64,000 nucleotides of DNA from Methanorbis rubei (GTDB lineage: Archaea > Halobacteriota > Methanomicrobia > Methanomicrobiales > Methanocorpusculaceae). This document shows positions 26,514-33,155 of the stretch, in pieces. Location: NCBI RefSeq assembly GCF_032714495.1, contig NZ_JAWDKB010000007.1, positions 62,001-126,000 on the forward strand, given 5' to 3'. Each line of letters starts with the position of its first letter. The first letter of the stretch is position 1. The notes under the pieces were generated by a model. The model searched no databases. It worked only from the letters and a program-made list of their open reading frames with translations, and was not told the origin of the DNA. Made by a program: the position numbers and the translations under genes.

Positions 26514-26546
26514 ATGAATGTGGTATGTATGAATGTGGTATGTATG
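26514..26546 (+). repeat. Tandem 15-bp repeat at the adhesin start
   Basis: ATGAATGTGGTATGT occurs twice in tandem and a third partial unit begins ATG. Each unit is five codons (MNVVC), so three in-frame ATG starts are offered. Gain or loss of a unit would keep the frame and change the spacing from the promoter. Confidence 0.75.
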
Positions 26547-29500
26547 TGTGTGTCATTGAATGACGATTCCGTGAAAAAAATTTCGTGCAGATCATGGATG
26601 CAGTATGCCCTGCTGCTGTGTGCAGTACTGTTGTGTGCGTGTGTACTGTTTACAGCTCCGGTTGCGGCATCGCCGGATGATGCCTTTGTATTTAATGGAG
26701 GAACCTTCGCCACCGCCCAGGCTCTTGCAGTTGCCCTCGGTTCTGCTGCCACCGCCGCCGACGATACTCTCACGCTCAACCAAGATCTCCTCCTCACCGG
26801 ACCGGTGAATATCACTGGAAGCATGACGATCATTGGTAACGGTCACACCATATGGCGCGGCGGCAATAACTTCTTCCTCATCAACGTCAGTGTTGGAATA
26901 CTCACGCTTGGCGGACCATCAGATATATTGATCATTAATGCATCGACGGATGAATTCTACAGCAACTGCGGCTTGATTCAGGTTACCGGCTCTGGCAGTG
27001 AACTTATCATGAACGACGGTGTCACCATAACTGGTGACTCCGAAAATAACTTTTATGAGGGGGGCAGCGTCTGTATTGTCTCCGGTGGTAATTTCACTAT
27101 GCATGGCGGCAACATCACCGATAACTGGGCTGGAACTGGTGGTGGCGTTTACGTCTCCGGCGGTAGCAGTTTCACTATGTACGGCGGCAACATCACCGAC
27201 AACAGAGGTTCTGATGGTGGTGGCGTCTACGTCACCTCCGGTAGCAGTTTCACTATGCATGGCGGCAACATCACTGGCAACCGTGCTAGTGGTAGTGGTG
27301 GCGGTGTCCGTGTCTCCGACCCTTACCCCTACACCGGCTCTTTCTTCACTATGGACGGCGGTAAAATCTTCGGCAACCGTGCTGGTGATGGCGGCGGTGT
27401 CTATGTTGGTGTTGTCGGCAATTTCACTATGAACGGCGGTGAAATTTTCGACAACATTGTGACTCAGTATGGCGGTGGCGTCAGGGTTTATGGCCTTAAC
27501 GCTGTGTTCACTATGAATAACGGCAAGATATTCAATAATACTGCACAGTATGGCGGTGGCGTCGATCTCGAGGGGTACGGCGGTGGCAGTTTCACTATGG
27601 GCGGCGGCGAAATCTCCGGTAACACTGCGACTAATAAGGGTGGTGGTATCAGGTCAAGTGGCGATGTCACTATTGACGACGGCGAAATTTCCGGTAATAC
27701 TGCACAGAATGGCGGTGGTGCCTTCCTTTACGGCAACAGTTTCACGATGCATGCCGGCAAAATCTCCGGCAACACCGGATCTACATATGCTGCTATCGGA
27801 TTCGAGAAATTAGAATTCGCCACAACATCATTTCTCATGACCGGCGGCGAGATCTCTCACAACATCGCGAAAGAATCCGACGGTGCTGCCATTGGATTCA
27901 ATAGCTCAAATCCTATTGTTGTGATCGTTACCATCACCGACGGCAGCATCATACACAATCAGGGTCACGCTATCAGTCAGAGCGGCGGCTTAAATACCCA
28001 AGGCACCTACAACATCGGGGGGACCACTCTCTTTCTCAACAACACCGGCAGCCATTTCTACATGAAGTCAGGCGATGCAACCCTCAACCTCACCGGCGGC
28101 GAATACAAAAAAGGAGAAAATACTGTCAACCTGCTCGACACGTCAGGCAAGACTGCTGTTTATCTCTCAGGCCCGGTCACCTTCGACGCTGACCTTCCGT
28201 TCACTCTCAACAGCAAGGACTCCACGGTAACCGTCAACGGAGAGTTCACCGGTATGATTCACAGCTTCAATCCGATCGCAGAAGATCTCGACAACGTAGC
28301 ACTCATCACAGTTGACAACACAAAGACAACTCAGAAACCATCCGAACTTCTCAGCAGATTTGCCCTTCTTGACACCAAAAAGTGGACACTTGTCGCTGAC
28401 GACAACACAGACACCATCAAAACCGTTATTAACAAACCGATTGCCCTCGCGGGTTCGGGCAACGTCACCGTCACCTGGATCAACGCAACTGTTGCCAACG
28501 TCAGCATCCGGCTCGACCCGAACGCCAACGACGCAACCGACGTCTATGTCAGACTCGGCAGCAGTGAGTCGCAGAAACTCTCCGGCGGCACCTTCGTCAA
28601 AGGCTCCACCATCAGTGACCTTCAGGTCACCGGCCTTACCGCAGGGACCTCCTACTCTGTTGCCGCCGTCCTCAAAAACACCGGCATCAGCTCAAGTGAG
28701 TTCACCTCTTCGAACCTTCTGGACACAACCTCCCCGACACCTCACACAGTCACCATCACCGGAACAGGAGGCGCACCTCTGCCTGACGGCGGTGCCAATC
28801 TTGGACAGGGCAAGAGCATGACCTTCGGCGTCCTCGTCTATGATGCAAGCGACAAACTCCTCAAAGACGAACCGGTCACCTGGAGTAAAACCGGAGCCTT
28901 CACAATCGAAGGAACGAAAACCGCCACCACCATCACCCTGACCGGCGGCAGCAGTGACGGAACTGACACCCTCACTGCAACCGCCGGCGGCGCTACCGGA
29001 ACTGCATCCATCAGTGTAACCACAGACACACCGACCAAACTTACCGTTAATGCTGACAAACAGACAATCGCTCTCGGCGACAGTGTATCTCTCACCCCGA
29101 TAGCGACAGATAACGGCGGCAAACAGTTCGCCGGATACGACGTCGAGTGGACTGTCAGTCCGTCCGGCACCATTGCAGACAGCAAAACAGGCGCAGCCGC
29201 AGCATTCACCCCGACAGTCGCAGGCAGTTACACCATCACAGCATCCGTCAGCGATCCGTCTCTTACCGCACAGACCACCATCACCGTCGTTGCCAAACCA
29301 ACAATCACCACCCAGCCGCAGAGCGCAACCTACATCAAAGGCCAGACCGCAGCCCAACTCACCGTAACCGCGTCCGGTGCCGCACTCGGCTACCAGTGGC
29401 AGAAATCCACTGACCCGAGCTTTAATGCAGACGTCAGTACTGTCGGAACCAATAGTAGAACCTACCCTCCTGACATCAGCACTGCAGGCACCACCTACTA

Positions 29501-31217
29501 CCGCGTAAACGTCACCAACACTCAGAACGACTTTGTCACCCACACCTACAGCAGTGCGGCAATGATCACCGTCCTCGAACCAACCGCAGACAAGATCGAA
29601 CTCAATAAAACATCCGTCACCATCCAGAAAGAGGGTGCCGCCGCCCAAATCACTGCAACTGCAAAAAACACTACCCTTGACACAAATCTTGACACTGCCG
29701 TGATCACCTGGTCAATCGAAACCGGCGGCGAATACGTATCCATCACTCAGGCTGGAAACACTGTCACCATCACCGGCAAACAGGCAGGAACCGCTGTCAT
29801 CAGCGCATCATCCGGCAGCGCTGCGGCAAAGGCAACCGTCATCGTCACCGACCAGACCGTAACAACCCATACCATCACTGCCAGTGCAGGCACCGGTGGC
29901 AGCATCAACCCGAATGGTGAAATTCCTGTCGTCGAAGGAAGTAGTCAGGGTTTCACCATCACCCCTGACACCGGCTACGAAATTACAAACGTCATAGTTG
30001 ACGGAACATCCGTCGACGCTGTCAACTACTACAAGTTCGACTCTGTAATGGAATCCCACACCATCGCTGCAACGTTCACCGCAACCTCCTACACCATCAC
30101 CGCAAGTGCAGGCCCAGGCGGCAGCATCAGCCCGAGCGGAGCAGTCACCGCCGCCCCGGGAGATGACAAATCCTTCACCATCACTGCGGCAACCGGCTAC
30201 AAAATTGCAGACGTCAAAGTTGACGGAACATCCGTCGGTGCTGCCAGCAGCCACACCATCGAAAACATTCAGGCAGCTTGCACCATCCGTGCAGAGTTTT
30301 CAGAGCTCCCTCCCTCCACTGTTACCATCACCGCGACAGCAGGTCCCGGCGGCAGCATCAGCCCGAGCGGAGCTGTCTCTGTCACTTCGGGAGATGACAA
30401 ATCCTTCAGCATCAATCCCGCAGACGGCTACAAAATTGCAGATGTCAAAGTTGATGGAAGATCTGTTGGTGCGGTCTCCAGCTACACTATCCAAAACATT
30501 GTGGCAGACCATACCATCGCTGCAACCTTCACCGGTGTACCGACCCCTGTCCCGACGGGTGGAGGTTCCTCTGACGGTGGATACAGCGGCTCAACCAGTG
30601 CAGGCATCAGCCTGACCGGTAGTGTATCCTTCGGCAGCTCGGTCGGATTCACCAGTGTAGACTTCCCTCAGGGAACCACAGGAACCGTGGTCCTGAACAC
30701 CAAACCCTCAGGAATTCCGGAGCCACAGAACAGTTACCTTGTCAGTGACATCTCGGCCCCCTCATTCCAGGGCTCAGCCCAGGTTGAGTTCAGTGTCCCT
30801 GCAGCACTCATCAGAGATCAGGGACTTGGTGTGAACGACGTCGTCCTCCGTCACTACGTAAACGGCGAATGGGTAAACCTCCCGACGTTCTTCATCGGCG
30901 AAGAGCGTGGTGCAGCACACTACGTTGCAACAACGTCCAGCTTCTCACCCTTTGCCATCGTCTATGAAAAAGGCGGGGCATCAACCGTTGAGAAGTCCAC
31001 GCCGCAGCCGACCGTTGCCGCAGGCACTGCCGCTGCAACGTCAGCAGCAACAGCCTCTGCAACAAATGCTCAGGCATCTGCGGCCACCCCTGTTCCAACG
31101 AACCCCGCAGGCAGCGCTGCAACCGCAGCACCCACGCTCACCCAGGCCCCCGTACCGGTTGCCGGAGCACTCTTCGGACTGCTTGCAGCCTGTGTAATGC
31201 TAAGGAGAAGGAACTAA
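26514..31217 (+). CDS. Giant surface adhesin: beta-helix, Ig-like, InlB-type repeats and PGF-pre-PGF domain
   Basis: A 1567-residue secreted, wall-anchored protein. A hydrophobic signal segment (about 28-50, ending PVAAS) is preceded by the repeat-encoded start. About nine parallel beta-helix repeats of the type FTMxGGxIxxNxAxxGGGV fill residues 190-430. Fibronectin- and Ig-like (Big) regions span about 640-1115. Three divergent InlB B-repeats with TITASAGPGGSISPSG fall at about 1120-1340. A PGF-pre-PGF-like domain ending SFSPFAIVYE lies at about 1365-1490. An Ala/Thr/Pro linker precedes a final membrane helix and RRRN tail, an archaeosortase-like C-terminus. The start may be 26514, 26529 or 26544. 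It probably mediates surface attachment; the ligand is unknown. Confidence 0.9.
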   Translation: MNVVCMNVVCMCVSLNDDSVKKISCRSWMQYALLLCAVLLCACVLFTAPVAASPDDAFVFNGGTFATAQALAVALGSAATAADDTLTLNQDLLLTGPVNITGSMTIIGNGHTIWRGGNNFFLINVSVGILTLGGPSDILIINASTDEFYSNCGLIQVTGSGSELIMNDGVTITGDSENNFYEGGSVCIVSGGNFTMHGGNITDNWAGTGGGVYVSGGSSFTMYGGNITDNRGSDGGGVYVTSGSSFTMHGGNITGNRASGSGGGVRVSDPYPYTGSFFTMDGGKIFGNRAGDGGGVYVGVVGNFTMNGGEIFDNIVTQYGGGVRVYGLNAVFTMNNGKIFNNTAQYGGGVDLEGYGGGSFTMGGGEISGNTATNKGGGIRSSGDVTIDDGEISGNTAQNGGGAFLYGNSFTMHAGKISGNTGSTYAAIGFEKLEFATTSFLMTGGEISHNIAKESDGAAIGFNSSNPIVVIVTITDGSIIHNQGHAISQSGGLNTQGTYNIGGTTLFLNNTGSHFYMKSGDATLNLTGGEYKKGENTVNLLDTSGKTAVYLSGPVTFDADLPFTLNSKDSTVTVNGEFTGMIHSFNPIAEDLDNVALITVDNTKTTQKPSELLSRFALLDTKKWTLVADDNTDTIKTVINKPIALAGSGNVTVTWINATVANVSIRLDPNANDATDVYVRLGSSESQKLSGGTFVKGSTISDLQVTGLTAGTSYSVAAVLKNTGISSSEFTSSNLLDTTSPTPHTVTITGTGGAPLPDGGANLGQGKSMTFGVLVYDASDKLLKDEPVTWSKTGAFTIEGTKTATTITLTGGSSDGTDTLTATAGGATGTASISVTTDTPTKLTVNADKQTIALGDSVSLTPIATDNGGKQFAGYDVEWTVSPSGTIADSKTGAAAAFTPTVAGSYTITASVSDPSLTAQTTITVVAKPTITTQPQSATYIKGQTAAQLTVTASGAALGYQWQKSTDPSFNADVSTVGTNSRTYPPDISTAGTTYYRVNVTNTQNDFVTHTYSSAAMITVLEPTADKIELNKTSVTIQKEGAAAQITATAKNTTLDTNLDTAVITWSIETGGEYVSITQAGNTVTITGKQAGTAVISASSGSAAAKATVIVTDQTVTTHTITASAGTGGSINPNGEIPVVEGSSQGFTITPDTGYEITNVIVDGTSVDAVNYYKFDSVMESHTIAATFTATSYTITASAGPGGSISPSGAVTAAPGDDKSFTITAATGYKIADVKVDGTSVGAASSHTIENIQAACTIRAEFSELPPSTVTITATAGPGGSISPSGAVSVTSGDDKSFSINPADGYKIADVKVDGRSVGAVSSYTIQNIVADHTIAATFTGVPTPVPTGGGSSDGGYSGSTSAGISLTGSVSFGSSVGFTSVDFPQGTTGTVVLNTKPSGIPEPQNSYLVSDISAPSFQGSAQVEFSVPAALIRDQGLGVNDVVLRHYVNGEWVNLPTFFIGEERGAAHYVATTSSFSPFAIVYEKGGASTVEKSTPQPTVAAGTAAATSAATASATNAQASAATPVPTNPAGSAATAAPTLTQAPVPVAGALFGLLAACVMLRRRN

Positions 31218-31238
31218 TCCTTCTTTTTTATTTTTTCC
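31218..31238 (+). terminator. T-rich terminator after the adhesin
   Basis: The adhesin stop is followed at once by a CTTCTTTTTTATTTTTTCC stretch, a likely archaeal terminator. Confidence 0.55.
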
Positions 31239-31300
31239 ATCTCGTAAAAGTGACCACTTCATCGTCTGGCAACATTTCATCTCAATTCCAATCAGCGAAT

Positions 31301-31888
31301 GCTGCACCGGCGGCACATGGCAATCATCCGATACCCACCAATGATGAACCGGGCAATAATTCCGGCCCGCTAAAAAAAAATCGTAAAAGCAGATGTGGTT
31401 GGTGTTTTGCACCATGCTTCACTAAAGATCAATATTGTTCATCACAAACAGCACACACGTCGGATGATGCCGGCCGTAACCGGTGAATCCACCGGTCGGG
31501 ATCGACTTGTCGGAAAATTTTAGCTGCAGATTTCATACAAGTCTCCACACCCAAATCCCGTCCATTCCTTCCGATCTCCCAATCTTTCCAGAAATCAGCC
31601 ACTGCTGCACCGGCGGCACATGGCATCATCCGATAACCCAACCATGATGAACCGGGCCATAATTCCGGGCCCGTAAAAAAAATCGTAAAAGCCAATGTTG
31701 CAGTTTTTGTACTGCAACACATCACCTAAAATGTTCCCGCGATAGAGACGCGGAAACATTTTGTTCATCACAAACAGCACACATATCGGATGATGTCGGC
31801 CGTTACCGGTGAAACACCGGTCGGGATACCTGACTTGTCACAAGAGTTTGCTACAGGCTCCATGCAAGTCCCCACACCCATATCCCGC
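31301..31888. repeat. Tandem duplication of a ~300-bp structured non-coding unit
   Basis: Copy A (31301-31560) and copy B (31604-31888) share a start GCTGCACCGGCGGCACATGG, the TGATGAACCGGGC block, an A-run then TCGTAAAAGC, TTGTTCATCACAAACAGCAC, a 7-bp hairpin ACCGGTG/CACCGGT, and CCCACACCC..ATCCCG. Two further hairpins are kept while bases differ: CGGGC/GCCCG in A becomes CGGGCC/GGCCCG in B, and GGTG-TTTTG-CACC in A becomes GTTGCAGT-TTTTGT-ACTGCAAC in B. B also has an extra hairpin at 31732-31758. No convincing protein is encoded on either strand. Stem conservation suggests a folded RNA or a protein-bound DNA element. Confidence 0.75.
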
Positions 31889-31907
31889 AATAGACAAGTG
31901 ATAATCC

Positions 31908-31997
31908 ATGAACATTACCAGAGCTTTCTTCGCTATAATAGTTCTCTTTGGCATGTGTACCGGCTTCATGATAATCATCTATCTGATGATGAAATAA
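31908..31997 (+). CDS. 29-residue hydrophobic membrane peptide
   Basis: A short frame just downstream of the second structured copy. It encodes MNITRAFFAIIVLFGMCTGF followed by MIIIYLMMK: a single membrane helix with a Lys at the end. An AGTGAT ribosome-binding-like site lies about 7 bp upstream. Such peptides occur as type-I toxins, membrane-complex subunits or chance frames. No homologue is recognised. Confidence 0.35.
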   Translation: MNITRAFFAIIVLFGMCTGFMIIIYLMMK

Positions 31998-32149
31998 ATC
32001 CGTGAACAAAAACACATCCTATTTTTCCAGAAATTTTATGCGCTCTCCCTCTTCGCCACACCAAATTCTCACCAAATCACTCCGTTCTTTTACATCAAGA
32101 ACAACCAAAAACACACATTAATGCATCAATAAGTTCAATATAATATACA

Positions 32150-32208: not shown

Positions 32209-32724
32209 ATGCCCCTCGATTTCACCCCCACCTCTATTGTGAAAGCAGCAAAACGCAGCTTCACCGTACCGATCACAACCGCGACCGCGTTTGACGCAAA
32301 CATCGCCGCACTCAAAGCAGCCGACAACCCTCTTGGTGCAACCGCGTATCAGACTGCGGGCGCGTCCGTTGACGGCGTCACCATCGCAAACGAGTACTAC
32401 AAGGCGACCATCGCCTACCTCAGTCCGCTTGGCGAGGTGATCGGCAGCGTCGTCATCGACGCACCCACCCGCAGCAGCTACGATGTGATCGTTGCCCACA
32501 TCCTTGCAGACACTGCTCTCACCGCGAAGTTTGCCGCAGACGCAGTCGCCGACCGCGACAACACCAAAGATTCCTGGAACGTCCGGCTCAAGATTCACGA
32601 CCCGACCGGCGAGATCTACTTCCTCAACTTCACCAGAAAGGATCTTCGGATCAGCTCTTATGAGAATGATGCGATTCTTGCCAAGGTCGATGCGTGGGCA
32701 GACGGGGTTAACTCCCTGAATTGA
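32209..32724 (+). CDS. Uncharacterised 171-residue protein
   Basis: A soluble-looking protein with no signal peptide or cysteines. It has alternating strands and helices, an Ala-rich stretch (about 25-60), and a C-terminal region DSWNVRLKIHDPTGEIYFLN followed by FTRKDLRISSYENDAILAKV that reads as a beta-sheet then helix. I do not recognise the family. It has its own TATA-like box and leader hairpin, and sits alone among repeat elements, which suggests accessory DNA. Confidence 0.7.
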   Translation: MPLDFTPTSIVKAAKRSFTVPITTATAFDANIAALKAADNPLGATAYQTAGASVDGVTIANEYYKATIAYLSPLGEVIGSVVIDAPTRSSYDVIVAHILADTALTAKFAADAVADRDNTKDSWNVRLKIHDPTGEIYFLNFTRKDLRISSYENDAILAKVDAWADGVNSLN

Positions 32725-32740
32725 AACGGCCCGGAATCAG

Positions 32741-32840
32741 TCGCAAACCTACGGTTTGCTTCTCTCCCCTGCAAGCAGGATCGCTCTCGTAATCGCATGC
32801 CGCTCTGCGGCCTGCTTTACAACTCCTTTCAGGAGTCGCC
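32741..32840. repeat. Cluster of short perfect hairpins with three-base loops
   Basis: Four adjacent palindromes follow the gene end: GCAAACC-TAC-GGTTTGC (32743-32759), CCTGC-AA-GCAGG (about 32769-32780), GCCGC-TCT-GCGGC (32799-32811) and ACTCCT-TTC-AGGAGT (32822-32836). Most have three-base loops. The third lies in CGCATGCC...GGCCTGC, a wording also found at 14.2 and 44.1 kb. Confidence 0.75.
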
Positions 32841-32845
32841 CCATC

Positions 32846-33123
32846 GGGACTCGGTCTCACGGTTGATTGAGATTATTTGAACAATAAACAAGAAAAAAGG
32901 AGAAACATCATGGACACAATCACCACCATCCTCATTATCGGTATTGCAGCACAGGGCATTACCGGCGCCGTCCTCATCCTCGCTGGCCCCATCTATGCGT
33001 GGAACGACAGATGGCTTGATCGTACTCATCGAACAACTGCCGATGAAGACCGGGAGTAAGAAAACTCCCGAACTATTTTTTCGCAAAACTCATTTTTCCC
33101 ATTCAACCGTGAGACCGAGTCCC
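32846..33123. repeat. 21-bp perfect inverted repeat flanking a small ORF (MITE-like element)
   Basis: The 21 bases at 32846-32866, starting GGGACTCGG, are exactly complementary to those at 33103-33123, ending CCGAGTCCC. The similarity stops sharply at both ends. The 236 bp inside contain one short gene with a good ribosome-binding site. No target-site duplication is clear: the left flank reads CCCCATC and the right flank AAAGGG. Confidence 0.75.
32910..33059 (+). CDS. 49-residue single-span membrane protein inside the inverted-repeat element
   Basis: ATG at 32910 is preceded at 8 bp by AAGGAG, a strong ribosome-binding site. Residues 5-29 (TTILIIGIAAQGITG then AVLILAGP) form one membrane helix; the tail NDRWLDRTHRTTADEDRE is charged. 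An upstream start would add 11 residues. Function unknown. The good translation signal and the flanking repeat make a real gene plausible. Confidence 0.5.
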   Translation: MDTITTILIIGIAAQGITGAVLILAGPIYAWNDRWLDRTHRTTADEDRE

Positions 33124-33155
33124 AAAGGGACGAGAGATGCCGAGCCGATATATTT

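Follow-up and report, generated by a model that had tools for sequence, protein, structure and literature searches.

What kind of element lies between a large surface-protein gene and a very short gene downstream of it, where two diverged, hairpin-rich copies of the same stretch follow one another? We address this question in a window of 64,000 nucleotides, the whole stretch of DNA that was analysed, which belongs to contig 7 of a 1.83 Mb archaeal assembly (G000), judged from its gene content presumably that of a methanogen close to Methanocorpusculum. The open reading frame list places the gene of a large secreted, adhesin-like surface protein of 1567 aa at 26514..31217 on the plus strand, directly 5' of the two units. 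The match of this protein to Big_1/PKD in a domain search is weak, and its C-terminal region is common to other surface proteins that also have an RNA copy downstream. Within the gene, three diverged tandem repeats of 201 nt are found at 29871-30524. A terminator-like hairpin with a U-tract is located at its stop codon (31202..31228, +), and homologous loci carry similar hairpins in the corresponding position. On the other side of the units follows the gene of a one-helix membrane peptide of 29 residues (MNITRAFFAIIVLFGMCTGFMIIIYLMMK; 31908..31997, +), with homologues in the genomes G012 and G032. It is preceded by a possible Shine-Dalgarno sequence, AAGTGAT (31896..31902, +), found in G012 6 nt before the start codon, and followed by a short U-tract (32022..32026, +), a possible terminator whose counterpart in G012 is a T9 tract.

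Further downstream, the window encodes a 171-residue protein starting with MPLDFTPTS (32209-32724) that has no Pfam match. It belongs to a multi-copy family with about 1-7 copies in most genomes of both genera of the family; other copies are located at L094:5494-5985 and on the minus strand of L149 near 1223-1735. We considered this protein as a partner of the RNA, as it is found 3' of it at three kinds of locus. The majority of the copies fetched from RNA-bearing genomes lack the RNA, and we therefore dropped the link and treat the protein as a mere neighbour. A 37-nt inverted repeat with 86% complementarity (32836-32872 and 33097-33133) flanks a short open reading frame and is possibly a small mobile element.

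The preliminary description of this region had proposed tandem units of about 300 bp. Two units are indeed present (31293..31560 and 31596..31887), each about 270-290 nt long, with 75% identity and a spacing of 303-327 nt. Sequence comparison and folding give the following elements, all on the plus strand, with unit 1 named before unit 2. H0 is located at 31293-31304 and 31596-31607. It is followed by P0/P1, a rod helix of about 18 pairs that joins the first part of the unit to a stretch 150-200 nt downstream and closes the unit around the conserved CAGCACAC (31449-31456; 31775-31782) and a hairpin domain. The 5' arm of P0/P1 is found at 31307-31333 and 31610-31636, its 3' arm at about 31457-31483 and about 31784-31809. 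The smaller hairpins are enclosed by this helix. Between its arms lie P2 (31342-31349 with 31437-31444; 31645-31652 with 31763-31770) and P3 (CGGGC/GCCCG, 31350-31369; CGGGCC/GGCCCG, 31653-31673). After an A-rich/UCGUAAAAGC segment (31372-31390; 31675-31692), unit 1 forms one hairpin (GGTG/CACC, in 31397-31416) and unit 2 forms two (31696-31719 with GTTGCAGT/ACTGCAAC inside, and 31728-31762). The 3' hairpin ACCGGTG/CACCGGT (31479-31496 with loop AATC; 31805-31821 with loop AAA) and the 3' domain P5 (31497-31560; 31822-31887) complete the units. Compared to dinucleotide shuffles, unit 2 folds far better (z -7.5) and unit 1 modestly better (z -2.8). Comparison yields a rod consensus of CCGG-CGGC, a 3-nt internal loop and 9-15 pairs that vary in sequence but covary; the 3' side of the rod carries a 3-nt bulge, NNA.

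All stems quoted in the preliminary description are thus found, together with their loops. Their interpretation as compensating change requires revision. The first stem is lengthened from CGGGC to CGGGCC and not compensated, the homology of the second hairpin is not clear, because unit 2 forms a pair of hairpins in this position, and the third stem does not vary, as had been claimed. With these two copies alone, the evidence for covariation is weak. The decisive helix is P0/P1, which was absent from the three hairpins described before, and true compensation is seen only after homologues are added to the two units.

DNA searches recover only one full relative, in G012, and a partial copy. A first covariance model, built from three copies, finds diverged copies in G012, G032 and G016. 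A second model, built from eight copies, finds three further copies in G000, the window's own genome. These were absent from training, and in the alignment they retain P0/P1 with different bases. A third model, comparison of gene neighbourhoods and a scan for arm complementarity add further copies, giving a total of 23 well-defined copies, besides others that are decayed or truncated, in G000, G012, G016, G030 and G032. The test suggested beforehand, a search of related genomes with a covariance model, has thus been passed.

These copies show a strongly conserved pairing pattern in P0/P1. For 12 copies and 18 pairs, 94.9% of cells are standard pairs, with two-sided changes at 11 pairs and compensation in 35 cells; for 22 copies and 17 pairs, 91.2% of cells are paired, 11 of 17 pairs are changed on both sides and 58 cells are compensatory. 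Both alignments lean towards structure, since they omit the variable inner domain and their register is in part manual; the larger one also leaves out a bulged base of unit 1. The observed pairing and compensation values are not reached by any of 500 shuffles in either set, and controls with slid partners pair in 23-45% (12 copies) and 20-41% (22 copies) of cases. We argue that the editing did not cause the covariation, because diverged copies had been found by the first model before any editing and further copies, absent from training, were found later. RNAalifold, applied unsupervised to eight copies, yields the same helix. Compensatory changes that keep a helix across homologues, the property by which a structured RNA is recognised, are therefore present, and the absence of covariation among homologues, named beforehand as the result that would speak against the proposal, is not what we observe. 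No open reading frame accounts for the region, in line with the initial view that no protein explains it; with no frame that fits and a helix that covaries, a decayed coding sequence is rejected. We conclude from this comparative evidence that the element is very probably a functional structured RNA and that the proposed selection for structure, RNA or cruciform, is supported.

The RNA does not belong to a family with an Rfam entry that we could recognise. Rfam 15 gives no match in the RNA region at the gathering threshold and none that is credible at a relaxed E-value. Weak matches to plant microRNA models were rejected, as they fall on unrelated palindromes (L067:5552-5713 and L154:1238-1398), which are likely transposon ends without relation to the RNA family. 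No description of the family was found in the literature covered, which did not extend to subscription journals and preprints. The orphan noncoding RNA families GOLLD, ROOL and OLE (PMC12286853) are likewise intergenic, multi-helix, defined by their structure and without assigned function. In contrast to these, the present RNA is shorter, archaeal and without sequence or structure match in Rfam 15.

The distribution of the family is narrow. The five RNA-bearing genomes are close relatives, sharing an MFS protein with 84-100% identity, compared to 58-74% for more distant members of the genus. Among about 230 genomes of the order, no convincing copy is found outside this clade. Matches of 18-22 bits at the level of the order (e.g. 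in G056 and G080) are located within GC-rich coding sequence and were discarded. For 21 genome-contig matches and one viral match to a sequence pattern, the model matches only one, with 11 bits, and the plasmid and phage records searched contain no match to the RNA family. Within the clade, copies recur at orthologous and paralogous sites.

Twelve copies are located on the same strand behind large surface-protein genes, commonly 23-150 nt past the stop codon. From this arrangement, the RNA could be an element of the 3' UTR of surface-protein mRNAs, in which the rod is read through and protects or localises the message, for example as a block to 3'-5' decay, with the peptide being incidental. 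We consider this unlikely. At several surface genes, the terminator-like hairpin at the stop codon lies ahead of the RNA, and no copy follows many other members of the same surface-gene family. In addition, several copies are free-standing, without an upstream surface gene: those at the MFS site in four genomes and that at G000:C3. An orthologous pair, G000:C7:4951 and G012:C9, is free-standing as well. A 3'-UTR role is possible at the adhesin loci, but it does not cover these free-standing copies. The MFS-site copies are orthologous and occupy one convergent site adjoining the MFS gene; they score low against the model (about 23 bits) and are dissimilar in their inner domains. In L157 and L171, a palindrome, ATCCTACAC(A/G)GATAGGAT, precedes the RNA at the MFS gene and recurs in inverted orientation a few hundred nucleotides farther upstream; it looks like an operator.

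Signals of transcription are found at a number of copies. A run of at least five T within 35 nt after the helix is present in 10 of 23 copies, compared to a background of 6%. For the tandem pairs outside the window (G012:C3b and G032:C10), the U-tract occurs after the second unit only. The MFS-site copies have TATA-like boxes upstream and T6-T7 runs just past the helix, and no obvious TATA box is found for the window copy. The ratio of G.U pairs to A.C mismatches is 14 to 1 at fixed columns and 14 to 22 in a neutral alignment extending beyond the helix on either side. Our assignment of the plus strand is therefore based mainly on the U-tracts. Together, strand-oriented U-tracts and TATA-like boxes favour an RNA over a DNA cruciform, as far as sequence signals can indicate.

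The same signals bear on the possibility of a DNA-level element, that is, a site of mobility, recombination or cruciform formation that accompanies surface-protein genes, akin to attC sites or MITEs with palindromic ends. Multiple copies, their tandem arrangement and their location downstream of variable surface genes speak for such an element, and the hairpin-forming, sequence-variable integron attC sites are also located downstream of genes. A partial copy adjoins a truncated tyrosine recombinase, and several G016 copies lie at contig ends. We nevertheless regard this explanation as improbable, because orthologues stay in place and full copies have no accompanying recombinase. Divergence within a genome equals divergence between genomes, unlike what recent mobility would produce. 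In contrast to attC sites, positions are conserved between species, the U-tracts are strand-oriented and no attC-type core or R box is seen by eye. Inspection of the gene lists by eye shows no integron integrase near full copies. The partial copy (L006:1485-1560, G000:C6) is located just 5' of the recombinase gene (1653-2603), which encodes a prematurely terminated product, apparently without the catalytic tyrosine. In G016, several contigs (C14, C18, C24 and C55; L066 and L097-L099) terminate at or close to a copy of the RNA and the 5' arm is missing from two copies, which suggests that near-identical repeats broke the assembly.

The order of surface protein, RNA and hydrophobic peptide of 29-30 residues is found at five loci: the window, G012:C3 and G032:C2, C6 and C8. 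A profile search for the peptide gives matches only beside the RNA, with these five loci intact, and a frameshifted relic of the peptide gene adjoins a decayed RNA copy at G012:C10. Judged from the comparison of the window with G012 (dN 0.20, dS 0.33), the peptide is under mild constraint. Searches of Pfam and NCBIfam with the peptide return nothing convincing. As the majority of RNA copies have no peptide gene, the peptide cannot be the general target of the family. The longest complementary run between RNA and peptide mRNA in antisense orientation is 8-9 nt, no longer than in shuffled controls; the duplex energy is low for unit 2 alone (z -3.2), which is not repeated in four homologues. A type I toxin-antitoxin-like module, with the peptide as toxin and the RNA as antitoxin or inhibitory leader, is very improbable. 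The gene of a small hydrophobic one-helix peptide, found only next to the RNA, and the two small RNAs beside it recall the E. coli type I locus dinQ/agrA-agrB (PMC3567139), in which two small RNAs adjoin a tiny single-transmembrane peptide gene. Here, RNA and peptide share one strand, no antisense complementarity is found and the majority of RNA copies come without the peptide.

One or two structured units 5' of an open reading frame also resemble tandem riboswitch-type leaders. In contrast to such leaders, the RNA is not always upstream of related genes: free-standing copies have no following gene and carry a U-tract directly after the helix, and downstream genes vary or are absent. The peptide start region is not consistently hidden in predicted folds, so there is no consistent sign of start-site sequestration.

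The best explanation, which we hold to be fairly probable on these sequence-based grounds, is a new, clade-limited family of regulatory RNAs, here a tandem pair on the plus strand, whose members serve either as genes standing alone or as leaders ahead of a tiny membrane-peptide gene. The free-standing copies would be small RNA genes, about 130-240 nt long, each with a promoter of its own and a U-tract terminator. The earlier size estimate of 250-300 nt suits the window copies and is too large for these shorter relatives. In the window and at the four homologous loci, one or two units would be transcribed as leader of the peptide gene, either from a putative promoter of their own or by read-through from the surface-protein gene. 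The stable rod may serve surface-associated functions as a binding platform or as a structural domain that controls how abundant the transcript is or what becomes of it, and may act in cis on the peptide, in trans, or both. We infer regulation of peptide or surface functions by the RNA.

To our knowledge, descriptions of structured RNA families restricted to archaea are scarce, and for archaeal small RNAs the question of function is mostly open. The family described here is new and would have an unusual double use as small RNA gene and as leader. More tentatively, the new archaeal RNA class and the 30-residue membrane peptide might form a control module for surface-protein loci, in which free-standing and leader forms regulate surface functions, possibly by means of a ligand or a dedicated protein bound to the conserved junction. 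Strong covariation, several diverged copies per genome and the association both with surface-protein loci and with a new family of tiny membrane peptides would make this a concrete module.
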